NCBI GenBank assembly: GCA_002317115.1
Contig: DCIP01000210.1
Location: 1-17,490 of the forward strand
Direction of reading: 5' to 3'
DNA length: 17,490 nucleotides
Source: Candidatus Scybalocola fimicaballi
GTDB taxonomy: Bacteria; Bacteroidota; Bacteroidia; Bacteroidales; Paludibacteraceae
The notes beneath the pieces were generated by a model. That model had not been told where the DNA came from, searched no databases, and worked only from the letters and a program-made list of their open reading frames with translations. Both the position numbers and the translations under genes were made by a program. Shown piece by piece: positions 366 through 17,487 of the stretch; positions within the stretch are counted from its first letter, which is position 1, and each line of letters opens with the position of its first letter.

Positions 366-1892
366 TTATCTTAATTTAGACGCTCCGGATTTTCCATCCA
401 CCTTCTTTGTCATTGGTGATCCGAACTTTGCTTTCTCTGCATCTTGCTTTGCCACAACCTCCATGTATTCGGCAGTGCTGAATGGAGCTGCTGTCTGTGC
501 AAACTCAGGCACGTTGTAGCTTTTTAGCAAATCTGCGTCATGACGTGGGTTGAGACGTGGCATACGGAATGGCTTAGTGGCGTTTCCGTTCTCATCGATG
601 TGAGTGATGTAGTTGCGGGCATAACTTCCGTCCTCTCGTTTCGACGCAATTAGCAGCCATCTGCTGTTGGTTGACCAACTGTGGTAGCTGTCGCAAAGTG
701 GAGAGTTGGCATTCTTCAAAGGAAGAAATTCCTTAGTTGCCAAGTTGACCAAGCATACATCAGCACTATGTTCTGTTGGCACCTGCATTCCATACTCCGC
801 ACGTGTGATGGCAAGGAATTTGCCGTCGGGTGAAATCTTTGGAATTGTGGCGCTGCTGTCAAGTTTTGTGGCTTCATATACAGTGTCGATCTTGCCCCAG
901 TTGCGTGTCTCGGCGTCGAACGCGATTCTCAAGATATCGTATTTCACGCTGTCGAATGGCAACTTGTTCTTATCGTCGTCGGTGCAGACGAAGTATAGAT
1001 GCTTTCCGTCGGGAGCCCATTCAGGGAACGACTCGAATCTGTTTTCCGAGCGGATGATGTTAGTGATCTCATTCTTCTCAATATCGTAAAGCACCAGGTC
1101 GCCATGAAGATTGAATGTCTCGATTTTGTTGACGGTAGACGAGTGGAACGACTGCTTGAAGTTGTCCATCGAGAATGCTATCAACGGAAGGGTAGGGTGC
1201 CATGAGGTGATTGATGTTGAGAATGGCATGTCGCCAGTCTTTGTGTCAATCTTGCGGACTGTGCCGTTGTATGAAAGGATCATGCCACCTTTCTCTCCAC
1301 GATAGTAGAAACTTCTGTTCTGTGAGTTGTGTCTGCTTACGAAATGGCAGTTGACGCATCTCTGCACACGATAGCCTGGCTGTGAGTGTGTGTAGTGGTC
1401 CGACGCGATGATGTTCTCCTCTCCAGTGGATAGGTTATACTGGTTGATAGACATCTCTCCACTCGCCATATAGCTTGGCTCAATCATACGGTATGTGACG
1501 TATTCGTCGATGGAGTCGCTGCTCACTGTCATTGTGAACGGAGCGTAACGTAGATAGCCGTTGCTTGTCTTCTCGTAAACCTCGAATGTGATATCTTTAT
1601 CTTTGTTTTCAGCAAGCAATGCCTTCCATTTGTCGATTGGGAAGCATACGTTGCCATTATCCGACGCTACCGACATCTCCGTCTTCTCGCCTGACACTTT
1701 GACTACGTAGTCTTTATTCGCGTCGACACAGAAATTCATAGGTAGAATGTTGCACGGAATGGTTGTCCCGATATAGCAGTCGGGAGTAATGGGTGCGACG
1801 TCGGAACTCTCTGTAAAAGACTTCGGCGCGTCCACTGAGCAGGCTGACATTAGCGTCGCCAGCATAAACATGATTATATTAGTCTTTTTCAT
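366..1892 (-). CDS. PD40/TolB-like beta-propeller lipoprotein with a CxxCH heme motif and a C-terminal flavinylation-like motif
   Basis: A 508-residue protein with a lipoprotein signal (MKKTNIIMFMLATLMSAC; lipobox Cys18), so exported and lipid-anchored. Residues about 225-425 hold PD40/TolB-propeller signatures: SWHPTLPLIAFSMD (230-243), EWAPDGKHLYFVC (291-303), KISPDGKFLAITR (352-364) and SWSTNSRWLLIAS (405-417). Just before the propeller is CVNCH (179-183), the c-type heme attachment pattern CxxCH. The last residues contain DGKSGAS (499-505), matching the D-x-x-S/T-G-A-T/S pattern to which ApbE covalently attaches FMN, with Ser505 as the expected acceptor. An apbE gene opens the same operon. 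The start codon overlaps the upstream stop by 4 nt (ATGA), implying translational coupling; an AAAGGAGG sequence lies 12 nt upstream. Exact role unknown; I infer an envelope electron-transfer function. Similar Bacteroides proteins have, as I recall, been labelled cytochrome c biosynthesis protein, which nothing here directly supports. Confidence 0.8.
   Translation of the reverse strand: MKKTNIIMFMLATLMSACSVDAPKSFTESSDVAPITPDCYIGTTIPCNILPMNFCVDANKDYVVKVSGEKTEMSVASDNGNVCFPIDKWKALLAENKDKDITFEVYEKTSNGYLRYAPFTMTVSSDSIDEYVTYRMIEPSYMASGEMSINQYNLSTGEENIIASDHYTHSQPGYRVQRCVNCHFVSRHNSQNRSFYYRGEKGGMILSYNGTVRKIDTKTGDMPFSTSITSWHPTLPLIAFSMDNFKQSFHSSTVNKIETFNLHGDLVLYDIEKNEITNIIRSENRFESFPEWAPDGKHLYFVCTDDDKNKLPFDSVKYDILRIAFDAETRNWGKIDTVYEATKLDSSATIPKISPDGKFLAITRAEYGMQVPTEHSADVCLVNLATKEFLPLKNANSPLCDSYHSWSTNSRWLLIASKREDGSYARNYITHIDENGNATKPFRMPRLNPRHDADLLKSYNVPEFAQTAAPFSTAEYMEVVAKQDAEKAKFGSPMTKKVDGKSGASKLR
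378..398 (-). other. Candidate ApbE flavinylation site codons (DGKSGAS)
   Basis: These codons encode Asp499-Gly-Lys-Ser-Gly-Ala-Ser505 at the end of the propeller lipoprotein. The pattern matches the FMN-attachment consensus known from NqrC, NqrB and RnfG-type proteins, where the final Thr or Ser receives FMN through a phosphoester bond. It sits on a tail outside any recognisable FMN-bind domain. The assignment is by motif and by the presence of apbE in the operon only. Confidence 0.55.
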
Positions 1893-3697
1893 TTGCTCAA
1901 ACTTCCTCCTTTATAATTTTTAGTGTCGACATCTTGATAGAAATAGAAGTAGACATAAGAGCCCTGATATTTCTCAAACTTATCTCTGGCGTTTTTGCCT
2001 GCTCTTCTAATCTCGTTTACAAGTTTTTGCGTGTTTAGAGCAAGATTTCTATCGACGTTGATGCTCTGCACAGCTGTTGTGTTTCCTGAAATAGCACATA
2101 GACAAGCGGCTTCCTGAATACATTTAGGCGGCATGTGTCCATCGTAAATTCTCGCTGCGACTGGAATGTCTTTCACGAATGCATCCAAATCTTTTGCGTA
2201 AAGTTCGGCAAGGATTCTTGCCTCCGCAATCTTTGGATTGGTGATGTTGCCTCTTTCAGCGATGAAATCGGCTGCGGAATAGTTGTGAAACCAGTCGTCT
2301 TGCTTCTCGAAATAAGATTCGAAGTTGGCGTATGCTGGTTTGTCTGCCAACAACTGTTTTTTGTTGCCGACATATTTTCTCCACTCTTTAGCATAGTCAG
2401 AGTAGACACCGCTTGTCTCCAAAATATTTAGATATCGCTCTGTAAGCTTTGGCTCTTCCATCATCACCGCGCAACGCATCATTCGTTTCAAACGACGGAA
2501 ATTCTCTCCTGTCAACTGGTAGTACTCCATTGCGTGGAATAGCGACATGGCGTAGTTTCCAGTGGCGAATGCGAAATCTTCGTAGTGAATCATGTGAGGC
2601 ACGACGAAGTTGCTGGTGTTGAAGCTTTCCCATGCTACAGGGAAATTAAACATCTTGTCTACATCCTCATCTTTCGCAATCAATGCTTCCACATAGTAGG
2701 CGTAGACGTCGGATGTCGGATGTTCTGTCTCTCTTGCCTCCTTGATCATCTCAGCCCAGTTGTCCTCGTTTTCCAATTGCTGCAATCGAAGGATCTTATG
2801 AAAGGTTTCGTCGTTGTAACAACATAGTTTTGCGATTACAATGACAACGATAAATGCGATTCCTGGACTCAAAATCTTCTTTACTGGCAATTCTGCCTCG
2901 TCTTGGCATCTGTTGGCAACAAATGGATATGCAATCATCAGTGCCATAGCTACAAGTGAATAAAAGAAGAATGAACTTGAATGCTGAACGTAAAGTGGAG
3001 CAAACATCGCTATTGAGTAGACCTCGTAGTGAAGCTGTGTCGATGTCAAATAGTTGAATCCAAACCATGATGCCAACCCGATTCCGGCAAGCATCATCGC
3101 TATCTTATTGTCTCTCTTAATGTACGACGTCGCTCCAATCAGCATTGCTAACGGAGAGAAAACTCCGATTGCGAAGTAGGAAAACTCCGCAGCTACAATC
3201 GATAGGTACAATGAAATCCTATTCTCTATCTGCATCCACCATGCCAAAAGCACTGCGATGAGGCTTCCAAGCAATAGCGACATCACAACCGAACCGTCGA
3301 CTTTATCGAAAAGAAGATATTCAAGATTGCATATTGCGACGTATAATGTAAGGGTTGGAACTGCCGCCATACCGATCTTCTTGGCGTTCGTCTGCTTTGT
3401 CACTCCCTTCAACAACACTGCGTAAATGGCTGTGAGTGTGGCTGATACAGCGAATACACCGAATATCGGTGATGCAAAAAACTGTGTGATGAATCTTGCT
3501 GCAAAACTAAGGGTTCCTGCTCCGTATGAAAAGATGATGGAGCGGAATGGATCACTATCCAAGTATAGGGTATAGTCGGAAAGTGCATATAGATACGACT
3601 GCTCGTATATTGCTGTCAAAGCAAATATGACAACGAAGAAAATTGCGATGGACGCATTTTCAATTGTCTTTATGCTGAATGTTTTGGCATCTTTCAT
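1889..3697 (-). CDS. Polytopic membrane protein with soluble helical C-terminal half (DUF6057-like)
   Basis: A 602-residue protein. The N-terminal half has about eight or nine hydrophobic segments (roughly 14-32, 78-98, 108-124, 136-154, 160-178, 180-192, 198-214, 240-262, 275-293), so it is an integral inner-membrane protein. Residues from about 300 onward are soluble and helix-rich with TPR-like spacing (for example LENEDNWAEMIKEARE near 308). The layout resembles the Bacteroidetes family DUF6057, whose function I do not know. It overlaps the downstream heme/flavin-motif lipoprotein by 4 nt and follows the tyrosine phosphatase by 9 nt. The overlap suggests it works with the lipoprotein, for instance as a membrane partner or electron donor, but that is inference. 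AGAGG lies a few bases upstream of the ATG. Confidence 0.7.
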   Translation of the reverse strand: MKDAKTFSIKTIENASIAIFFVVIFALTAIYEQSYLYALSDYTLYLDSDPFRSIIFSYGAGTLSFAARFITQFFASPIFGVFAVSATLTAIYAVLLKGVTKQTNAKKIGMAAVPTLTLYVAICNLEYLLFDKVDGSVVMSLLLGSLIAVLLAWWMQIENRISLYLSIVAAEFSYFAIGVFSPLAMLIGATSYIKRDNKIAMMLAGIGLASWFGFNYLTSTQLHYEVYSIAMFAPLYVQHSSSFFFYSLVAMALMIAYPFVANRCQDEAELPVKKILSPGIAFIVVIVIAKLCCYNDETFHKILRLQQLENEDNWAEMIKEARETEHPTSDVYAYYVEALIAKDEDVDKMFNFPVAWESFNTSNFVVPHMIHYEDFAFATGNYAMSLFHAMEYYQLTGENFRRLKRMMRCAVMMEEPKLTERYLNILETSGVYSDYAKEWRKYVGNKKQLLADKPAYANFESYFEKQDDWFHNYSAADFIAERGNITNPKIAEARILAELYAKDLDAFVKDIPVAARIYDGHMPPKCIQEAACLCAISGNTTAVQSINVDRNLALNTQKLVNEIRRAGKNARDKFEKYQGSYVYFYFYQDVDTKNYKGGSLSK

Positions 3698-3706
3698 AGC
3701 CTCTTC

Positions 3707-4186
3707 TTATAAGTTATCCTTTTTTAGTTTTTCATATAATCCCTTGCACGCATCTTCAAGAAGGTCGAGCACAAGTTCAAAACCATCCGCTCCTCCATAG
3801 TAAGGGTCTGGCACATAGTCGTTGGTGAAACTTCTGCAGAACTCGGTCATCTTGTGGATCTTCTGTGTGTGCTCCACAGTGGCAGCACGGTCGTGAAGAT
3901 CGTCGATATTGGTGTTGTCCATACCGATCACCAGGTCGAAATTGTCAAAGTCGGCTGTCTTGACTGGTCGGCTTATTGATGTGACGTCGTAGCCTCGGCG
4001 CGACGCGAATGATATCATACGTGGGTCGGCATGCTCACCTTGATGGTAACTCAAGATGCCGGCAGAGTCGATATTGAAATCAGCAGACTCTCCCTTGTCG
4101 TCGACAATCTTCTTCATCACAGCCTCTGCTGCAGCCGAACGACAGATGTTGCCCAAACAAACGAATAATATGTTGTGTTTTGCCAT
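3707..4186 (-). CDS. Low-molecular-weight protein-tyrosine phosphatase
   Basis: A 159-residue cytoplasmic protein, the usual length of the LMW-PTP family. The N-terminal P-loop reads VCLGNICRS (residues 9-17), with nucleophile Cys10 and Arg16 of the C-x5-R-S signature. The general acid is Asp127 in VPDPYY (125-130), the classic DPYY motif. All key catalytic residues are present, so it should hydrolyse phosphotyrosine or related low-molecular-weight phosphoesters. It lies 19 nt after the helicase and 9 nt before the DUF6057-like gene, inside the operon. No tyrosine kinase is visible in the window, so the substrate is unknown; Bacteroidetes paralogs are often linked to capsule control, but nothing here points to that. 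Confidence 0.93.
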   Translation of the reverse strand: MAKHNILFVCLGNICRSAAAEAVMKKIVDDKGESADFNIDSAGILSYHQGEHADPRMISFASRRGYDVTSISRPVKTADFDNFDLVIGMDNTNIDDLHDRAATVEHTQKIHKMTEFCRSFTNDYVPDPYYGGADGFELVLDLLEDACKGLYEKLKKDNL

Positions 4187-4205
4187 GTTATTAAAGTTAT
4201 AATAA

Positions 4206-5726
4206 TCAACCTACGGAATCATCCTTAGGATGATTGCCATGCTGAGGATTCTGGCCATTATTATTGTTACGATGGTTATTATAATGGCGACGGTGATTGT
4301 TGAATCTTCTTGGTTTCTGCTCACCGTTCTGTTGATTCTGAATGTTTCCCGATTGTTGTGGCTGACTTTGGACAGGCACAGAAGCACCTACGTTTTGACC
4401 GTCATTCCCGTTTAGTTGGCCATTTGGACGTGGACCACGATGATTGTTGTTATGTGGTCTGTTATGGTTGTTTCGGTTTCCATTACGATTGCCATTGCGG
4501 TTTTCGTTATGGTTGTTGTTAACGTTAGCGTTAACGTCAACGTTTCTTCTTCTGTTTCTTCCCTTAGCCTTCAATCTTGGCTCGTACGCTGGACCTTCAC
4601 CAAGTTCTTCTGGCAATGGCATCTTGTCGATCTCTTTCTCCAAGAACTGTTCGATCATTCCAAACTTGTCCTGGTCTTTCTCCGACACGAATGTGATACC
4701 CACTCCCTGACGGTTGGCACGTGCTGTACGGCCGATACGGTGGATATAGTCTTCCGCGTCGTGAGGCACATCGTAGTTGATTACCATGTCGATACCTTCG
4801 ATATCGATACCACGGGAAAGAATGTCAGTGGCTACAATCACGTTGATTTTGCCACTCTTATAGTCGAGCATCACTTCGTCGCGCACTGCCTGATCCAAAT
4901 CGGAATGCATGGCTCCGACCTTGATCTTCATGCGAAGAAGAGCGTTATATACGTCTTTCACATTCTGTTTCGACGATGAGAAGATGATTGTCTTGTCGAC
5001 GCTGTTGTTTGCCAACAACTTCTGCACCAACATACGTTTCTGAGTCTCGTAGCAGATGTAGGCTTGCTGAGTGATTCCCTCTGCAGGTTTGGAGATTGCG
5101 ACGTTGACAAATTCTGGCTCATGAAGGATTGTCTCTGCCAATTTCTTGATCTTGGCTGGCATTGTTGCTGAGAACATCACTGTCTGGCGTTTCACTGGCA
5201 ACTGCTTCACGATGGAGATGATATCGTCGTAGAAACCCATGTCGAGCATACGGTCGGCCTCATCCAAGATGAAATGCTCCACGCCTGAGAAATCGGCGTT
5301 CTCCATCTTGATATGTGAGATCAAACGGCCTGGTGTGGCGATCACGATATCCGTACCGTTCTTCATTGCCTGCTTCTGTGTCTCGTAGGCTGAGGCATCG
5401 TTGCCACCGTAAACGGCTACTGATGAGATGGATACGAAGTATGAGATTCCTTCCAACTGCTGGTCGATCTGTTGAGCCAACTCACGAGTCGGAGCCATGA
5501 TGATGGCACGTACTTTGTCGTGTGATGGTTTTCTAAGCAATTGGTTGATTAGCGGCAATAGGTATGCGGCTGTCTTTCCTGTACCTGTCTGAGCACAGGC
5601 TATCAAATCCTTACCTTCCATCACCACTGGCATTGCCTTCTCTTGCACAGGAGTCATCTCCTGGAAGTTCATGGCGTCTATACCGTCAAGTAGCGACGGT
5701 TCAAAATCTAATTCGTCGAATCTCAT
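4206..5726 (-). CDS. rhlE: DEAD-box ATP-dependent RNA helicase, RhlE type
   Basis: A 506-residue protein with all helicase motifs in order: Q motif region near Gln28, Walker A AQTGTGKT (45-52), PTRELA (79-84), TPGR (131-134), DEAD (155-158), SAT (186-188), ATDILSRGID (299-308) and HRIGRTAR (329-336). The core ends near residue 380 and is followed by a low-complexity tail (about 385-506) rich in Asn, His, Gly, Arg and Gln, with repeats such as NRNGNRNGNRNN. Such tails bind RNA non-specifically and can drive condensation. RhlE-type helicases remodel RNA in ribosome assembly and mRNA decay. The gene lies 6 nt after the WG-repeat gene and 19 nt before the phosphatase, so it is co-transcribed with envelope genes, which is odd for a housekeeping RNA enzyme. 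Confidence 0.92.
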   Translation of the reverse strand: MRFDELDFEPSLLDGIDAMNFQEMTPVQEKAMPVVMEGKDLIACAQTGTGKTAAYLLPLINQLLRKPSHDKVRAIIMAPTRELAQQIDQQLEGISYFVSISSVAVYGGNDASAYETQKQAMKNGTDIVIATPGRLISHIKMENADFSGVEHFILDEADRMLDMGFYDDIISIVKQLPVKRQTVMFSATMPAKIKKLAETILHEPEFVNVAISKPAEGITQQAYICYETQKRMLVQKLLANNSVDKTIIFSSSKQNVKDVYNALLRMKIKVGAMHSDLDQAVRDEVMLDYKSGKINVIVATDILSRGIDIEGIDMVINYDVPHDAEDYIHRIGRTARANRQGVGITFVSEKDQDKFGMIEQFLEKEIDKMPLPEELGEGPAYEPRLKAKGRNRRRNVDVNANVNNNHNENRNGNRNGNRNNHNRPHNNNHRGPRPNGQLNGNDGQNVGASVPVQSQPQQSGNIQNQQNGEQKPRRFNNHRRHYNNHRNNNNGQNPQHGNHPKDDSVG

Positions 5727-5732
5727 CTGTAG

Positions 5733-7550
5733 TTATTTCTTTGGGTCTTCCTTCTTTGCTGGTTTGTCGCATTCGTCGCCTGGATAAAGCGAGACACATT
5801 CATAGCCAGGGAAGACTTCTTTCATAAAGTTTGGCACTTCAGAGCATGTTCCGACAGAGACGATTCCCTCTACCAGTTTCTCTGATTTTTTGCCATTTGT
5901 GTCGATGTAATATTTCTTGTTGACCATCGCAAGGCCATCCTTGAATGGGTATGCGTGGTTGAAACTTGGAGATATCGCCTCCTTGAATTGGTCGTTTAGG
6001 AATCCAACCTTGTCGCCCTTGGCTATACGGGCGAATCCGCAGCTGTACGGGTTGATGTAGTCGTATTGTGGCTCAACAACCTCTTTGCCAAGGCTGTTTA
6101 TCATTCCCCACTTGCCATCTTTCTTGACTATAGCCAAACCGTTGTAGAAGACGTCGATAAACTCGTAGATTGGGTTCACATAGATAGCCTGGCGGTCTGG
6201 AGTCAACAATCCGTATAGGTTGTTCTGCTCGAAACGGATAAGCTTTGTTGGATCGTCGACTTTGGTTGAAGGCTCGTAGTAAACAATGCTCTCCTCCTTC
6301 ATGCCGTTTTTTATCAAGATGACATTGTTTCTCTTGCTCTTGTTGGCATAGATTGAGTCGTATGCACACTCTATGATAGGGAAACCTCCTAAGTCGTAGA
6401 TTCCAAGTTTGCCGTTTTTCTTCACCAACAATACATCCGTGCTGTTCTCGAAACGCATGATGGAGTCGTATTTGCATGGAATCACCGACTGTCCAAGCTC
6501 ATCCACCAAACCGTATAGAGCTCCTGTTTTTACGAGAGCAACATGTGATAGAAAATAACTCATGTCGTCGTAACGAGCGGAGATGATTGTCTTGCCTAAA
6601 TCGTTAACCAAACCTTTCTTTCCGTTCTGCACAAACACAACATAGCCGGGACGGAATTTAAGCAAAGTGTCGTAAACACAGTCGATTACGTGCTTTCCGT
6701 TCTTGTTGATGAATCCACATTTGCCAGCAAGTCTTGCAAAAGCCAAATCTTTCATCACCGGACCTTCTTTGATTATCGACTCGTCAAATGTCTCGTCGAA
6801 AGATGTCTCCATTCCGAACAATCCGATTGTGTCGTAGCGGCAAGGTACGATGGTCTTGCCCATGTTGTTGATTAATCCCCATCTTCCGTCTTTCTTGACG
6901 CGGGAATAACCCTCTTCGTAGTAGTACAACTCGTCGTATTCGTGAGGGATAAGCTCCTCGTTGTTGCAGTTCATCAATCCCCACTTGTCGTTGTGACGAA
7001 GGCGTACAGTGCCGTCGGGATAATGCTGCATATATTCGTAGTTGTATGGGAAGACGTCGGTGCCGTTCTTATAAACGAAATTCCACTTGCCTTTGACCAA
7101 TACTCGTGAATAATCATCAATCAATGTGTCGATGAAAACGTAGTCTTTCGGACGTGCTGCCTCACGTTGCTTCTCATTCGTGTTCAACGCATAGCTGACT
7201 TTTGTCTTCAATGTGACTGTCTGAGCCTCCCCCTTGATTTTGATTGGCTCGAAGTTTGGCATTGTTTCAAAAAGGCTTCTTGCCTCTCTCAAAAGTTGCG
7301 GATTGCATTTGCACGATGGCTTGATATCTGAAATATGTCCGTCCTTGTTGACAGTGAAAGTGACAGTGACGTCGCCACCTTTCATTCTTATTGCATCCTC
7401 TCCGACAAGTTCGGATGGATACTGTTTTGCGGCAGATATATATTTATTGAATTCAGGGTCATCCACGCCAGTAAACCCTTTGGCTGAGGCGTTGAATGAG
7501 AATGAACTCAACAGAATTCCCAATATGATAGTTTTCAGGTTAAGCTTCAT
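5733..7550 (-). CDS. Secreted WG-repeat protein with TonB-C-like N-terminal domain
   Basis: A 605-residue protein with a Sec signal peptide (hydrophobic core about 6-19, likely cleavage after ASA at residue 23). Residues about 55-125 (GDVTVTFTVNKDGHISDIK and the following helix and strand) resemble the C-terminal domain of TonB-type proteins, including a CKC pair. The rest is a chain of about ten WG repeats, visible as GKWNF, DKWGL, GRWGL, GKCGF, GKKGL, ALYGL, GKLGI, NLYGL, GKWGM and DKVGF, each followed by an acidic or polar turn and a Tyr-Asp motif. WG repeats are beta-rich and of unknown biochemical role; in Bacteroidetes they are common in exported proteins. The start overlaps the apbE stop by one base (TAATG), and the helicase follows after 6 nt. 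It probably acts in the periplasm or on the cell surface; no enzymatic motif is seen. Confidence 0.85.
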   Translation of the reverse strand: MKLNLKTIILGILLSSFSFNASAKGFTGVDDPEFNKYISAAKQYPSELVGEDAIRMKGGDVTVTFTVNKDGHISDIKPSCKCNPQLLREARSLFETMPNFEPIKIKGEAQTVTLKTKVSYALNTNEKQREAARPKDYVFIDTLIDDYSRVLVKGKWNFVYKNGTDVFPYNYEYMQHYPDGTVRLRHNDKWGLMNCNNEELIPHEYDELYYYEEGYSRVKKDGRWGLINNMGKTIVPCRYDTIGLFGMETSFDETFDESIIKEGPVMKDLAFARLAGKCGFINKNGKHVIDCVYDTLLKFRPGYVVFVQNGKKGLVNDLGKTIISARYDDMSYFLSHVALVKTGALYGLVDELGQSVIPCKYDSIMRFENSTDVLLVKKNGKLGIYDLGGFPIIECAYDSIYANKSKRNNVILIKNGMKEESIVYYEPSTKVDDPTKLIRFEQNNLYGLLTPDRQAIYVNPIYEFIDVFYNGLAIVKKDGKWGMINSLGKEVVEPQYDYINPYSCGFARIAKGDKVGFLNDQFKEAISPSFNHAYPFKDGLAMVNKKYYIDTNGKKSEKLVEGIVSVGTCSEVPNFMKEVFPGYECVSLYPGDECDKPAKKEDPKK

Positions 7551-8575
7551 TATTGTTTGAATTTAAATCCATTTGTCTGTTTTTCCAGATACTCTCCGTT
7601 TTCTCCGGAATATATAAAATAGCCCTCTACGTTATGTAGGGATTCGATAAGTGACATTGCTGAATCCACGCCAAACACCATGCATGATGTTGCCAAAGCG
7701 TCGGCGGTCATGCAGTCGTCTGCGATGATAGAACTGCTTAGCAGTGTATGGCAGACTGGTTTGCCAGAGCGAGGATCGATAGTGTGCGCGTATTTCACAC
7801 CATCTTTGTAGTAATATTGCAGATAGTTTCCACTTGTTGCCAATGATTTCCCGTCGAGCTGCACAACACGTTGAATCTCAGCTGTATGCTGCATTGTGCT
7901 GTCTTCGATAGGCTTGTTGATGCCGATGCTCCAGACGTTTCCTTTGTCGTTGACTCCGCTGCAGACAACCTCTCCTCCGACCTCAACCATGAAGTCGTTG
8001 ATGCCGTTGTTGCGTAGGACGCGAGCCACCTCGTCGGAACCAAAACCTTTGGCAATAGCCGATGCGTCTAATTTGATCTGTGGGTTTTCTTTCTTGATAT
8101 ATCCCGATTGGCATAAAACCACCTTCTTCCAGCCTACGATCTTTTTCAATTCTGCGATCACACTGTCTGGAGTCGAACGATCCGGATCATATCCAAAGCC
8201 GTATGCGTTGACAAGTGGAGCGACGGTGATGTCGAAAGCTCCGTTTGTGATTGTGGAAATCTCACACGCTCTGTTGTAGACAGTCAGGAATAACGAATCT
8301 TTCTCACTCAAAAGGACAGAGTCGGAAGATAGGTTGACGCGGGTGATTGTAGATTGCTTGTTGAAAGTGGACAATGCAGTGTCGACGTTGGCAAGAGCCT
8401 CAAGATATTCCGTCTTCACATCTTTGCCATTTGACTTATACTTTATATTATAGAAAGTACCGAACACTCTGCCGCTATCGCTGACATATTCAGCCGACGG
8501 TTGTGTGTTGTGAACACATGCCGACAACAGAATAGCGGAAATAAATATTATTAAATAGCGTAACGTCGCTTTCAT
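7550..8575 (-). CDS. apbE: FAD:protein FMN transferase ApbE, lipoprotein
   Basis: A 341-residue protein with a lipoprotein signal ending LLSAC (lipobox Cys20), placing it on the periplasmic side of a membrane. ApbE family motifs are present in order: STFNKQSTITRVN (69-81), GAFDITVAPLVNAYGFG (112-128), KLDASAIAKGFG (168-179), VEVGGEVVCSG (197-207), ATSGNYLQYYYKDG (246-259), HTIDPRSGKP (264-273) and ADALATS (291-297). ApbE takes FAD and, with Mg2+, transfers FMN onto Ser or Thr of a Dxx[ST]GA[ST] motif in exported redox proteins. It is the first gene of the operon, under the promoter at 8613-8643. No Rnf or Nqr genes are visible. A matching acceptor motif occurs in the last gene of the same operon, which is the best candidate substrate here. 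Confidence 0.95.
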   Translation of the reverse strand: MKATLRYLIIFISAILLSACVHNTQPSAEYVSDSGRVFGTFYNIKYKSNGKDVKTEYLEALANVDTALSTFNKQSTITRVNLSSDSVLLSEKDSLFLTVYNRACEISTITNGAFDITVAPLVNAYGFGYDPDRSTPDSVIAELKKIVGWKKVVLCQSGYIKKENPQIKLDASAIAKGFGSDEVARVLRNNGINDFMVEVGGEVVCSGVNDKGNVWSIGINKPIEDSTMQHTAEIQRVVQLDGKSLATSGNYLQYYYKDGVKYAHTIDPRSGKPVCHTLLSSSIIADDCMTADALATSCMVFGVDSAMSLIESLHNVEGYFIYSGENGEYLEKQTNGFKFKQ

Positions 8576-11136: not shown

Positions 11137-11171
11137 AATTATGAATTACGAATTATGCATTACAAATTATT
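11137..11171. repeat. Heptanucleotide array A (AATTATG units) at the thiH stop codon
   Basis: Five consecutive 7-nt units on the plus strand: AATTATG, AATTACG, AATTATG, CATTACA, AATTATT. The last unit contains the complement of the thiH stop codon (11167-11169). The array has the same orientation and register as array B at the thiC stop. No gene adjoins it other than thiH. Confidence 0.8.
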
Positions 11172-12279
11172 GCAAAACCTGATCCCAGTCTTTCCAAACT
11201 GGCTCTCTACCCATCTTCTTCAACGCTGCCATCACCTCAACGGCTGTACGCTCGTCTGAGACGTGGAACTGCTCCAACGCTTGTGGATATGTGAAGTAGC
11301 CTCCTGGCTCAGTCTTGCTCTCCGCCGACATTGTTGTGACTCCGAGTGTGGCCATGTTATCACGGATGTTGGCTGGCTCACGAGTGGAGTAGCTGATGTC
11401 GATATCGTGGTCGAAGATACGGAAGGCGAATGTCAACTGTGCAAGTTCCTTGTCGCTCATGATGACGTTAGGCTGGAATCCTCCGTTTTCTGCCACACGC
11501 ATACGTGGAAAATTGACACTGTACTTTGTCTTCCAGTAGTTCTTCTCCAAATAGCGGACGTGATGAGCCATCATGGTCATGTCTGTACGCCAGTCCTCTA
11601 ATCCGACCAATACTCCCATGCCGATGGAGTGAACACCTGCTTGGGCCATACGGTCGAATCCGTTCAGTCTCCACTCAAAATTGGATTTCATACCTCTTGG
11701 ATGGTACACTTTGTATCTGGCTTTGTTGTATGTCTCCTGGAAACAGATGACACCGCTCAAACCGTGGTCGCAAAGTGTGGAATAGCCTTCCACGTCCAAT
11801 GGCATAACCTCAATCTTGATGTTGGCGAAATATTTCTTAGCAATGTCGATGGCGTTGGCAAGATAAGGAACTCCGGCTTTTGCTGGGTTCTCTCCTGTCA
11901 CCAACAGAATATTCTCGAATGGGGATAGCTTTTTGATTGCCTTAAACTCATTCTCAATCTCTTCCATTGTTAGAATTGTGCGAGCCATAGGATTCTGGAT
12001 GTGGAATCCACAGTATACGCATGAGTTGGTGCATGAGTTTGTAAGATACAACGGTATGAACATCGAAATGGTTTTTCCGAATCGTTCAAGCGTGATCTGT
12101 CGGCTCTTCGCTGCCATCTGCTCCAAATAGGGCTCGGCGGCTGGCGATATAAGAGCCATGAAATCGTCGACAGTTAGTCTGTCTTTCGCCAAGGCACGAC
12201 GTACATCAGCGTCTGTCTTTGCATAGATGGATTTCGTTGTCTCATCCCACGAAATCTTCTCTAATTCATCTGAAAACAT
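11167..12279 (-). CDS. thiH: 2-iminoacetate synthase (radical SAM tyrosine lyase)
   Basis: A 370-residue protein of normal ThiH length. The radical SAM cluster motif is C83-x3-C87-x2-C90 in NSCTNSCVYCGFH. Other family stretches are visible: LLVTGENP, IEVMPLDVEGY, FQETYNKARYKVYHPRG, HSIGMGVLVGLEDWRTD and VNFPRMR. ThiH cleaves tyrosine to p-cresol and dehydroglycine, the C2-N donor for ThiG in anaerobic thiazole synthesis. It lies 6 nt after the EamA gene and is the last gene of the operon in this window; thiF, which often follows thiH in Bacteroides, is not here. Its stop codon lies inside heptamer array A. An AAGG sits just upstream of the ATG. Confidence 0.97.
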   Translation of the reverse strand: MFSDELEKISWDETTKSIYAKTDADVRRALAKDRLTVDDFMALISPAAEPYLEQMAAKSRQITLERFGKTISMFIPLYLTNSCTNSCVYCGFHIQNPMARTILTMEEIENEFKAIKKLSPFENILLVTGENPAKAGVPYLANAIDIAKKYFANIKIEVMPLDVEGYSTLCDHGLSGVICFQETYNKARYKVYHPRGMKSNFEWRLNGFDRMAQAGVHSIGMGVLVGLEDWRTDMTMMAHHVRYLEKNYWKTKYSVNFPRMRVAENGGFQPNVIMSDKELAQLTFAFRIFDHDIDISYSTREPANIRDNMATLGVTTMSAESKTEPGGYFTYPQALEQFHVSDERTAVEVMAALKKMGREPVWKDWDQVLQ

Positions 12280-12285
12280 ACCTTG

Positions 12286-13173
12286 TTATTTGTTTTGTTT
12301 ATTGTTTGCAATTATTAAACCTATGAATATCAGCAATGTGCCAGCCACAACCCAAATCGTAATTTCTTTGGAGAAGAAAATGGCTGCCGACGCTGCTGAC
12401 ACAATCGGAAGCAGATATAGGAAGTTGTTGGTCTTGGCTGCACCAATCGTTCTGAACGATACGTTCCACAACCAAAGGCTTGCACCGCTCGCCACGAGTC
12501 CTAAATAGGCTGTGCCGAGTATATGAGTCCAATTCATCTTTCCCCATATCTCTGCTGGCGACGGTGCGTCGCTCTCCAATAGCACAACCGGTAGAATTGT
12601 CAATGCTCCGTAGAAGAAAAGTCGACGTGTGGTCTGCAACTCTGTCACTTCCTTTGGCATCTTCGTCAATAGGAGAGAGTAGACTGCCCACGAAAAAACT
12701 GCCAGGAAGGTGATGAAATCGCCTAATGGACTTAAATTGAGCACCAACATTCCATTTAGCACGACGCAAGCCACTCCTGCCAACGCCACCATACTGCCGA
12801 TGATGAATCCTCTCGTCGGCTTCATCAATCTAAGGATGATGAAGAGTAGGGCTGTGGCGATTGGCACTGTCGCGCATATCAGCCCGACGTTGGTGGCACT
12901 CGACATCTTCAATCCGTTGTACTCAAGGAAGAAGTAAAGGCTTCCTCCCGTCAAACCGATCAAGAACATCTTTAGCTCTGTGAGTGTCTTCTCCATCTTG
13001 TAGGGTTTGGGACACATGACGCATAATGCGATGTATGCCAACACAAACCTGCAGAAGATGAGTTGCACTGGAGTTATCCCCGTCTCAAGAATTGATTTCG
13101 AAATGACGAAGGTTGATCCCCAGATTAGTGCTACTATTAGAGCGGGAGCGTATTTTATAAATTCATAATTCAT
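12286..13173 (-). CDS. EamA/DMT-superfamily transporter
   Basis: A 295-residue membrane protein with about ten hydrophobic helices in two EamA repeats (about 8-140 and 150-290). The N-terminus APALIVALIWGSTFVISKSIL is the hallmark first helix of the drug/metabolite transporter superfamily. Substrates of EamA proteins cannot be read from sequence. Its place between thiC and thiH, 6 nt before thiH, suggests a link to thiamin or its precursors, but this is only inference. The start codon and the first five residues (MNYEF) are encoded by heptamer array C; other ATGs in that array (13187, 13166) are out of frame. The start was therefore probably created or displaced by the repeat. Confidence 0.88.
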   Translation of the reverse strand: MNYEFIKYAPALIVALIWGSTFVISKSILETGITPVQLIFCRFVLAYIALCVMCPKPYKMEKTLTELKMFLIGLTGGSLYFFLEYNGLKMSSATNVGLICATVPIATALLFIILRLMKPTRGFIIGSMVALAGVACVVLNGMLVLNLSPLGDFITFLAVFSWAVYSLLLTKMPKEVTELQTTRRLFFYGALTILPVVLLESDAPSPAEIWGKMNWTHILGTAYLGLVASGASLWLWNVSFRTIGAAKTNNFLYLLPIVSAASAAIFFSKEITIWVVAGTLLIFIGLIIANNKQNK

Positions 13174-13191
13174 AATTCACAATTCATAATT
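13157..13191. repeat. Heptanucleotide array C, inverted relative to B
   Basis: Four clear units at 13164-13191 (CATAATT, CATAATT, CACAATT, CATAATT) plus a degenerate fifth at 13157-13163. This is the reverse complement of the AATTATG units in array B. It begins 6 nt beyond the stop codon of the four-helix-bundle gene and contains the start codon of the EamA gene (13171-13173). With array B it frames the small gene as an inverted pair. Confidence 0.85.
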
Positions 13192-13197
13192 GTTTTG

Positions 13198-13566
13198 TTA
13201 TGATGCTTTTTCCTCTTCTTTATGCTTACATATAGAAGTCAATAATTTTAATAATTCTGTACAATCTGCATTGATATTTTCAAAATGGTCTTTTGAAATA
13301 TAATCAGTTTCATGTAGAATTTCAAGCCAATATTCTGTTTCAGAAGCCTCTTTTAGAGCAATACATAATTTTGCATAAAAGTCTGCTTTTGATTGGGCTC
13401 TTACTCCTTCTTTGATATTAGCACCAATGCTTGTGCCACTTCTAAGAAGCTGCTTTGACATTACGAATTCACTTTTCTCCTTACATAAGTATTTATAGAG
13501 ATTTACACAACGAATCGCAAATTTCTTACTCTTACTGAGTATCGCATTATTGTCTTGATTCTTCAT
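13198..13566 (-). CDS. Four-helix-bundle protein (S23 / 23S rRNA intervening-sequence protein family)
   Basis: A 122-residue protein matching the S23/IVP family in length and signature: SGTSIGANIKEG (43-54) and KLCIALKEASETEYWLEIL (66-84). The family was first found encoded in intervening sequences of 23S rRNA and is structurally related to Avd, the accessory protein of diversity-generating retroelements. These proteins form basic pentameric barrels that can bind nucleic acid; their cellular role is unresolved. Here it is not in an rRNA gene but between thiC and an EamA gene, visibly more AT-rich than its neighbours, and framed by inverted heptamer arrays (13157-13191 and 13573-13607). This points to acquisition as a small element. 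AAGG lies 3 nt before the ATG. Confidence 0.9.
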   Translation of the reverse strand: MKNQDNNAILSKSKKFAIRCVNLYKYLCKEKSEFVMSKQLLRSGTSIGANIKEGVRAQSKADFYAKLCIALKEASETEYWLEILHETDYISKDHFENINADCTELLKLLTSICKHKEEEKAS

Positions 13567-13572
13567 GCCCTT

Positions 13573-16123
<2,551 letters not shown>

Positions 16124-16155
16124 TTCTATATTGTTTTTTTATTTTCATTTATAAG

Positions 16156-16197
16156 TCTGTTTTGTGGCTGACGTTATAACGTCAGCCACAAAACAGA
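16156..16197. repeat. 42-bp perfect palindrome between thiE and thiG
   Basis: Every base from 16156 to 16197 pairs with its mirror around the centre at 16176/16177 (core GTTATAAC, flanked by GTGGCTGAC / GTCAGCCAC and TCTGTTTT / AAAACAGA). It starts one base after the thiE stop codon. On both strands the GC-rich stem is followed by A-rich, not U-rich, sequence, so a standard intrinsic terminator is unlikely. Confidence 0.85.
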
Positions 16198-16198
16198 A

Positions 16199-16846
16199 TC
16201 AGAAACATTTTTCAATAATCTTCAAAATTTCCTCTGTCTCTACCTTTGGATCGGCTGCCGAAAGAATTCCTCCTGAGATGGCGATGCCGTTTGGACCGGC
16301 ATTAAGCACTTTGCGGATGTCGTCCTTGGTGATGCCTCCGATTGCCACGATAGGAATGTTGATTCCTTTCTCTCGGCATTTCCACACGATTTCCTGATAA
16401 CCCTCAAGGCCAAGCACAGGAGCAAGTTTCTTCTTTGTCGTAGTGAAACGGAATGGCCCGCAGCCGATATAGTCGACGTCGTCCTTGATGGCAAGGATAT
16501 CCTCGAAACTGTTGCATGTGCCGCCGATGATGAACCCGTCGCCAAGGATAGTGCGTGCATCTTTAGGATTCATATCCATTTTGCCAAGGTGAACACCGTC
16601 GGCTCCGACTTCTTTCGCAAGCTCCACGTGATCATCGATGATCATCACTGCATTATACTGCTTGCATAGCGGCAACAGTTCAAGTGCCACCTTCTTCACC
16701 TCCTCCACAGGAGTGTCCTTCATTCGTAGTTGCACCCATTTGCAACCACCCTCAAGGGCAAGTTTGGCTCCCTCGATCTCAGACATTCCGTTGACGGGAT
16801 GAGTTATAAGTTGTAGCGAGAAAGCTCGCATCTGCATTAGATTCAT
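16199..16846 (-). CDS. thiE: Thiamin-phosphate synthase
   Basis: From the ATG ending at 16846 the protein has 215 residues (MNLMQMRAFSLQLITHP), close to the usual ThiE length. Family motifs are VQLRMKD (38-44), IIDDHVELAKEVGADGVHLGKMD (69-91), IIGGTCNSFEDI (106-117), YIGCGPFRFTTTK and VAIGGITKDDI. The residues for HMP pyrophosphate and Mg2+ binding appear intact, so it should couple HMP-PP with thiazole phosphate to give thiamin phosphate. The frame is open upstream to a GTG at 16891 that overlaps the preceding stop (TAGTG), with further ATGs at 16876 and 16867. The upstream residues look unlike ThiE and partly fall in a hairpin, so the downstream start is preferred, not proved. Confidence 0.93.
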   Translation of the reverse strand: MNLMQMRAFSLQLITHPVNGMSEIEGAKLALEGGCKWVQLRMKDTPVEEVKKVALELLPLCKQYNAVMIIDDHVELAKEVGADGVHLGKMDMNPKDARTILGDGFIIGGTCNSFEDILAIKDDVDYIGCGPFRFTTTKKKLAPVLGLEGYQEIVWKCREKGINIPIVAIGGITKDDIRKVLNAGPNGIAISGGILSAADPKVETEEILKIIEKCF

Positions 16847-16867
16847 ATTTTTCTGTATTTTATCCAT

Positions 16868-16888
16868 CCGTGTCATGGTAAGACACGG
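16868..16888. repeat. Short hairpin between the TenI-like gene and thiE
   Basis: A perfect 7-bp stem (16868-16874 CCGTGTC with 16882-16888 GACACGG) with a 7-nt loop lies directly after the TenI-like stop codon. No U-tract follows. It covers the GTG/ATG candidate starts at 16891 and 16876 and so argues for a later thiE start or for control of thiE translation. Confidence 0.55.
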
Positions 16889-16890
16889 CA

Positions 16891-17487
16891 CTACACCATC
16901 ATTTGTTTAATTATCTCGATTTGCGCAATTCCGTCTTTCCAGGCACTTCCCAAAATGGCGACGCCTCCGAATCCGTATTCACGAACCTGATCAAGTTTGT
17001 CGACGGTGATGCCTCCAAGCGCAATCACGTTTTCGTTGATGATTCCATCTGCTTTGGCTTGCATCAAAACCTCTGGAGTGAAGTTTGAGGCATAACCCAC
17101 TTTGCTGATGCTGTCGAAGATTGGGCTCAAAAAGCAGTATTGCAAATTTTTCGACGTCGCAACCTCCTCCAACGAATGACACGATCGGGAACAAAAAAAC
17201 GATTCTCTGACGTGCGTGTCATCGTCAAGGTTAACGTCAACGTTTATATGTCTGCCGTTCAGATGAGCCCCTCCAAGATTATATTCGTCGACGAGATTGT
17301 AGCAGTCGTGAAGCACAATCTTCTTTCTCTCCTCTGCTGTCAACCCCTCGATGATGCATCTCAACGTCTGCTCGTCAGCCTTAGGATGACGGAGATGCAG
17401 ACGAAAAACACCGCAGCCAATCACTCGTTTGATCTGCTCCGTCTCACAGTCGAAAGGATTCTCCGGAGTGATGACGACTACTTTCAT
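16891..17487 (-). CDS. tenI: ThiE/TenI-family protein, probable thiazole tautomerase
   Basis: A 198-residue TIM-barrel protein related to ThiE but diverged at active-site motifs. The ThiE substrate motif QLR-x-K is replaced by RLHLRHPKAD (29-38), and the HLG-type motif reads GGAHLNGRH (72-80). TenI-type segments SCHSLEEV (102-109), SPIFDSISKVGYAS (121-134) and VIALGGIT are present. TenI isomerises the ThiG product to the aromatic thiazole carboxylate before ThiE uses it. A true thiE lies directly downstream, which favours the TenI role here. It is the most upstream thi gene visible; the ATG at 17485-17487 is 3 nt from the edge, so a longer N-terminus cannot be fully excluded. The symbol reflects the likely subfamily and is less certain than the family. 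Confidence 0.8.
   Translation of the reverse strand: MKVVVITPENPFDCETEQIKRVIGCGVFRLHLRHPKADEQTLRCIIEGLTAEERKKIVLHDCYNLVDEYNLGGAHLNGRHINVDVNLDDDTHVRESFFCSRSCHSLEEVATSKNLQYCFLSPIFDSISKVGYASNFTPEVLMQAKADGIINENVIALGGITVDKLDQVREYGFGGVAILGSAWKDGIAQIEIIKQMMV

Follow-up and report, generated by a model that had tools for sequence, protein, structure and literature searches.

A TolB-fold, putative c-heme lipoprotein of Bacteroidales carrying a conserved, predicted ApbE flavinylation motif on a disordered C-terminal tail

The window analysed here is a whole stretch of 17,490 nucleotides of contig DCIP01000210.1 from Candidatus Scybalocola fimicaballi (Paludibacteraceae, Bacteroidales; assembly GCA_002317115.1), and it contains an operon whose last gene encodes a lipoprotein with a c-heme attachment motif and a candidate flavin attachment motif. 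Six densely spaced genes on the minus strand span positions 8575 to 366. The first, apbE (7550..8575), encodes a predicted FAD:protein FMN transferase (FAD, flavin adenine dinucleotide; FMN, flavin mononucleotide; Pfam ApbE 5.6e-77, PDB 6nxi 1.3e-53) with a lipobox, LLSAC, recognised by eye. It is followed by genes for a WG-repeat protein (5733..7550; Pfam WG_beta_rep 1.1e-68), which shows an apparent signal peptide and a sub-threshold TonB_C-like stretch, a DEAD-box RNA helicase (4206..5726; DEAD 1.8e-50), a low-molecular-weight tyrosine phosphatase (3707..4186; LMWPc 4.6e-39), a DUF6057 membrane protein (1889..3697; DUF6057 4.8e-55) and, last, the TolB-fold (PD40) c-heme lipoprotein of 508 residues (366..1892; PD40 5.4e-6). 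In operon order, the genes are joined by a 1-base overlap, lie 6, 19 and 9 bases apart, and end in a four-base overlap between the end of the DUF6057 gene and the start of the lipoprotein gene. Coordinates and Pfam families both agree with the original prediction of a tight six-gene operon opened by apbE and closed by the lipoprotein.

The lipoprotein starts with a signal peptide that runs to a lipobox (SAC) at Cys18 (1839..1892, minus strand, as for the other features of this gene); this cysteine is present in 132 of 135 aligned members and would fit export from the cytosol. The c-heme attachment motif CVNCH (residues 179-183, 1344..1358) was assigned from the conservation of CxxCH in homologs. 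The C-terminus reads VDGKSGASKLR, and DGKSGAS (residues 499-505, 378..398) is the predicted flavinylation site, with Ser505 as acceptor, on the basis of motif conservation in relatives. It had been placed earlier on a bare tail; the sequence confirms this position, and the AlphaFold2 model shows the tail (residues 491-508, 369..422) as disordered within an otherwise confident structure, with a mean pLDDT (predicted local distance difference test) of 58 for residues 491-500 and 41 for residues 501-508. A Pfam scan at E 0.01 found only PD40 and a sub-threshold DPPIV_N match in the lipoprotein, FMN_bind (PF04205) being absent. TolB of the Tol-Pal system was rejected as its identity: although the fold is alike, it scores 28.7 bits against a TolB equivalog cut-off of 343.15. 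PF26549 and PF26550 are listed for homologs of the lipoprotein in both protein searches described below.

A first homolog search, run against 5.8 billion proteins, found 560 homologs at E 1e-5. The motif lies in the last 70 residues of 43 among the best 120 of these 560, a share which is not a population frequency, as the homolog lists begin from tail-bearing queries, and it is present even in homologs 35-45% identical to the query, within otherwise differing tails. To these 120 hits we added 160 complete locus copies, each 420 residues or longer, giving 280 distinct members; one cut, two short (L116 and L188) and one CxxCH-less (L198) copy were excluded from 185 locus hits. The start of the tail was set by a C-terminal landmark, or, for the 13 of 280 members lacking it, by taking the last 60 residues. 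The strict motif, Dxx[ST]GA[ST], is found after the end of the propeller in 75 of the 280 members, once in 51 of them, twice in 17, three times in six and four times in one, and the last motif ends 3-20 residues ahead of the stop. Shuffling the tails 1000 times left a mean of 0.07 sequences with the strict motif (maximum 2), and the bodies of the 280 members contain it twice in 129,871 residues. Clustering at 60% identity gave 104 representatives, of which 29 are strict, five show only the relaxed form ([DNE]xx[STA][GS]A[ST]) and 70 show neither. In all 29 strict representatives the free second motif position is occupied only by G, A, S or T, while the flanks are variable.

A second search started from L184, a member of a distant tail-bearing clade. 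Here 7774 of 8000 scored candidates reached E 1e-30 or better, and among the 120 matches listed the motif is in the last 70 residues of 76, as DALSGAT in 56 and DALSGAS in 15, with no occurrence in their 52,441 body residues. One of the 44 listed matches without it is partial, and several carry near-forms (DALSSAT, DALSGST, NALSGAS). Furthermore, 1619 distinct, mechanically predicted genes from fetched loci, the family included, contain only one non-member with the strict motif, and it encodes an FMN_bind/FAD_binding_2 protein; elsewhere in this sample, the motif thus goes with a usual type of flavinylation target. The original prediction took the tail for an ApbE-type acceptor; that it is a conserved, often repeated, putative acceptor motif of this type is supported by its presence in 75 of 280 members, by its repeats and by the 76 of 120 matches listed from the second search.

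Tails also differ in their last residues. The multi-tag tails of one group (P0054, P0061, P0070, P0073 and L033) show ..HGE or ..IHE after the last tag, and tail-less members end in ..NFYE or ..EEH in some cases and in VDTxYMxxHL in members from the second search. In L098 and L129 of genome G005 the tail reads NGTSGAS...NGVAGAS, with Asn in place of the motif Asp, and apbE is unlinked to the lipoprotein gene in this genome.

A quick tree of the 104 representative bodies without their tails (branch support by the Shimodaira-Hasegawa-like approximate likelihood ratio test, SH-aLRT, only; midpoint root) shows the motif in several places. One clade of eight rows from several families of the order (SH-aLRT 99) is strict in 8/8, and the clade with the window's genus (SH-aLRT 100) contains 18 strict and five relaxed rows of 23. 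Beyond these clades the strict motif appears in two further groups, its three rows there (L028, L053 and L069, with two copies each) lying among tail-less relatives. The fewest changes on the tree are 10 when only the strict motif is counted and five for strict or relaxed versus none, with gain and loss indistinguishable, and the tail arm appears at four or more separate places, whether it was gained or lost repeatedly. Many homologs have no tail and are nonetheless paired with DUF6057 in the loci that were read, which makes the tail a module rather than a constant part. Conservation of the tail across orthologs is thus partial: the motif is kept or repeated in many of them, but most representatives lack the tail.

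The heme motif is nearly universal in the family, in agreement with the heme site proposed earlier for CVNCH. CxxCH is present in 240/240 homologs listed by the two protein searches (120/120 in each) and in 181 of 182 complete locus copies. Asn181, between the two cysteines, is constant in the 135-member alignment, whose rows have CxxCH partly by selection because L198, which lacks it, was left out. The source genome, which is 77.6% complete, contains two matches to the cytochrome-c assembly family Cytochrom_C_asm (PF01578). This family is present in 21/22 lipoprotein genomes and 38/59 others (Fisher p 0.005) and, within the window's family at completeness of at least 90%, in 13/13 genomes with the lipoprotein and 9/22 without it (p 0.0006); these p-values are too small because the genomes are related, five of the 13 belonging to one genus. 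The sole lipoprotein genome without Cytochrom_C_asm, G008, is 64% complete. In addition, G009 and G040 have a ResB/CcsA gene near the DUF6057-lipoprotein pair (loci L146 and L120).

The lipoprotein has one constant partner, DUF6057, encoded directly upstream of it, in agreement with the pairing suggested earlier for a DUF6057-like membrane protein. DUF6057 was found in 79 of 80 named loci, the other one, L069, starting at the lipoprotein. Tails in these 80 loci are strict in nine (twice in L004) and relaxed in two (L003 and L057), the C-terminus is cut in one (L027), and 68 have none. Neighbour clustering placed DUF6057 in 123 loci, at position -1 in 128/146 placements and on the same strand in 145/146, although these counts are not independent because some loci overlap, the same place having been fetched twice. 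Only DUF6057 is constant: a constant third partner was looked for and rejected, as TonB receptors, S9 peptidases, glycoside hydrolases and ribosome recycling factor vary. The pair is doubled side by side in L004, L114, L068, L079 and L200, and in L004 and L114 both lipoprotein copies show tail tags.

The DUF6057 protein is modelled (pLDDT 89) as a helical membrane bundle plus a part like a tetratricopeptide repeat (TPR). The bundle is possibly GT-C-like in this model, and structural comparison with VIA-align is no more than suggestive of GT-C membership. In GT-C glycosyltransferases the first outer loop has an acidic residue that is conserved, and the DUF6057 alignment contains no invariant column. 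A lenient Pfam scan run on 40 DUF6057 members gave other hits to single members only, the best being NnrS (6.3e-5), and none of the papers found in the open-licence literature searched names DUF6057.

The ApbE of the operon scores 259.3 bits against a Pfam cut-off of 25.6, and its catalytic histidine is kept: YAHTIDP aligns with YSHIIDP of 6nxi, while 6nxj has a glycine at that position. It forms a clade of its own, apart from the second ApbE of the genome, which sits on another contig. In the window's genus, apbE lies in the lipoprotein operon in 7/9 genomes. In G008, whose assembly is fragmented, apbE and the lipoprotein gene fall on separate contigs; in G005, an apbE-WG pair stands apart from the DUF6057-lipoprotein pairs; and the operon of G007 contains two DUF6057-lipoprotein pairs, one with two tags. 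The association of tail and apbE noted in the original prediction stands at this level, and it does not extend to the other tail-bearing genera examined, so that a rule of apbE being linked wherever the tail occurs was rejected. C-termini were read for part of the matches from 49 lipoprotein genomes. ApbE is present in all 22 genomes whose tail was classed as strict (21, among them G196, for which the copy is partial) or relaxed (one, G005); this co-occurrence is weak evidence because ApbE occurs in 73/81 genomes and in 350/393, about 89% of the order. The ApbE list contains 48 of the 49 lipoprotein genomes, the exception being G285 (65% complete) with the tail-less copy L161.

According to PMC12052999, ApbE needs no more than a seven-residue tag and is most effective when this tag is terminal. 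Loss of the motif Asp is reported to have a minor effect in one ApbE substrate, and the tag of a kinetoplastid enzyme, D(g/s)x(s/t)(s/g)AS, is a natural S-for-G form (PMC8065229); the tail variants therefore fit the reported tolerance of ApbE.

Other genes were noted around both apbE copies. The second apbE adjoins a gene for a 577-residue protein (L135:11480-13213, G000:C160; also L136, L137, L138 and L143) which has an apparent signal peptide, no Pfam match and the stretch DV[VF]TSAT[NS]GKASRF in 5/5 full-length copies. This stretch fits an S-for-G flavinylation variant, and the protein could be one more novel target of ApbE. Upstream of the apbE operon, on the same strand, thiamine-type genes occupy 11167-17487 of the window; radical-SAM/BATS and TMP-TENI proteins were identified by Pfam and others are thiC- or thiG-like by eye. 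A 23S rRNA-intervening-sequence-type protein is encoded at 13198-13566, just before the thiamine-type genes. An earlier link of apbE to thiamine synthesis is mentioned in PMC12052999; the thiamine-type neighbourhood of the operon is probably incidental.

We consider it probable that the lipoprotein of the window is a periplasmic TolB-fold c-heme protein with ApbE-attached FMN on its flexible tail, that is, a heme-flavin redox protein with DUF6057 as its partner. In the proposed mechanism, the lipoprotein would be exported and lipid-anchored and would bind a c-heme covalently at CVNCH, next to a six-bladed propeller like that of TolB. ApbE, whose gene belongs to the same operon in the window's genus, would put FMN on Ser505 at the end of the tail, and relatives would carry FMN on one to four such tags. 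The tethered FMN could then work as a movable arm that passes electrons between the heme and a partner in the membrane or the periplasm, and DUF6057, with its membrane and TPR-like parts, may be the partner or docking scaffold of the lipoprotein. For the family at large we lean, somewhat less firmly, towards many members coupling c-heme to one to four ApbE-written FMNs on a disordered C-terminal arm for periplasmic electron transfer, with flavins on a string in place of folded flavin domains.

Several observations weigh against this proposal. The acceptor in the window lipoprotein is Ser instead of Thr, and ApbE is reported to prefer Thr, Ser acceptors being 10 to 55% less flavinylated (PMC12052999). 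As 70/104 representatives are tail-less, the flavin is not needed for the basic function of the family, and the prevalence figures given above are biased upwards because the homolog lists start from tail-bearing queries. Linkage to apbE is also restricted: it is unlinked in the tail-bearing genomes read outside the window's genus, no apbE was found in the fetched DNA of the 80 named loci, many of which have flanks shorter than 10 kb, and none lies within 8 kb around the tail-bearing copy L187 of G275. In G224, an apbE is near tail-less copies (L200), on the opposite strand, so not every neighbouring apbE is meaningful. Regarding the heme, no distal ligand is strictly conserved (His232 in 118/135 and His404 in 124/135 members), and L198 (2062-3459, G155), a complete tail-less member, has no CxxCH at all, being either a heme-less or a damaged copy. 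Finally, the DUF6057 alignment shows neither an invariant column nor an evident redox motif.

These observations leave room for other explanations. Chance, the caution attached to the original prediction, can practically be set aside: short and degenerate as the motif is, its number in the tails far exceeds that left by shuffling, the distant clade confirms it, and every row of two clades is strict or relaxed. It is very unlikely that the tag is read by a factor other than ApbE, such as a sorting factor, a protease or a binding partner, with no flavinylation taking place. Linkage of apbE in one genus only would be explained in this way, as would the other recurrent C-terminal endings of tail-less members, e.g. 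..VDTLYMxxHL; but the agreement of the tails with the ApbE motif holds at every residue and extends to the S-for-G variant (PMC8065229), tandem copies fit a repeatable modification site, and the sole other gene with the strict motif in the fetched loci is the one for the FMN_bind protein.

Two further explanations were considered. The tail may be flavinylated with no electron exchange between flavin and heme, the FMN serving a separate partner or storage and the heme-propeller keeping a function of its own as in the tail-less homologs. This we regard as rather unlikely; it agrees with the module being missing from most representatives while the heme motif stays, but the tag is found on this heme protein in four or more parts of the tree, suggesting that the two cofactors are connected, and the flexible tail could plausibly reach its own protein. 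To a similar degree we doubt that the operon ApbE serves the WG-repeat protein or general flavinylation and is beside the lipoprotein incidentally. In G005, apbE and the WG gene are together without the DUF6057-lipoprotein pair, and the tag persists elsewhere with apbE unlinked; against this, the WG protein has no strict flavinylation motif, and the other ApbE of the genome adjoins another candidate target, suggesting a target of its own for each ApbE.

That many relatives keep or repeat the tag suggests that a family of redox proteins combining heme and flavin has gone unnoticed. If the proposed heme-flavin function is correct, these proteins would form a widespread class of Bacteroidales ApbE substrates in which no flavin-binding domain is recognised. 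Surveys based on apbE gene clusters or on FMN_bind domains would easily overlook them, and those that begin with apbE neighbours would fail to find most, because apbE is mostly unlinked. The tail-bearing and tail-less members together form a large family, as the candidates scored in the second search show, and the DUF6057-lipoprotein pair was found in many rumen and gut Bacteroidales records. The proposed function would also provide a first way into the biochemistry of DUF6057 and the heme lipoprotein it accompanies, and the tag would be a natural terminal flavin tag on a protein other than a flavin-binding fold.

The original prediction knew of no described system with this arrangement. A flavin-tag tail on a heme propeller lipoprotein was indeed in no paper found in the open-licence literature, covered mostly by titles and the beginnings of abstracts, and the main text of PMC8238504 contains neither 'Bacteroid' nor 'propeller'; terminal flavin tags themselves, however, have precedents in the C-terminal extensions of FMN_red proteins (PMC11334425), the N-terminal tag of kinetoplastid fumarate reductase (PMC8065229) and engineered tags (PMC12052999). 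Among proteins with a similar propeller, TolB lacks the heme motif, lipid anchor, flavin tail and constant DUF6057 neighbour of the window lipoprotein. Chain A of 5c2v, which from its chain length we take to be hydrazine synthase alpha, shares the propeller alone; the active heme of hydrazine synthase is in the middle domain after the propeller (PMC12758564), whereas CVNCH lies before or at the propeller start, and a hydrazine-synthase-like heme site was rejected since only the propeller matches. The motif form of NqrC/RnfG FMN_bind subunits is close to DALSGAT. This is the commonest form in the far clade, but those subunits have a folded FMN_bind domain and none was found in the lipoprotein. 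Multi-flavinylated FMN_bind proteins carry several covalent FMNs per protein (PMC11334425, PMC12052999), as predicted here; their FMNs are in folded domains, in contrast to tags spaced along a short tail. The kinetoplastid NADH-fumarate reductase FRDg carries its tag, D3(g/s)x(s/t)(s/g)AS9, at the very end of the chain and shares the S-for-G variation with some of the tails described here, but the tag is N-terminal, an ApbE-like domain is on the same polypeptide, and the enzyme is a fumarate reductase of eukaryotic cells (PMC8065229). The FMN_red substrates of Firmicutes likewise show one or two motifs on an unstructured C-terminal extension and have apbE neighbours, and flavinylation of the extension, as well as its loss upon mutation of the site, was demonstrated by gel (PMC11334425); unlike FMN_red, itself a flavin-binding fold, the carrier here is a TolB-fold heme lipoprotein without a recognised flavin domain and with up to four tags.

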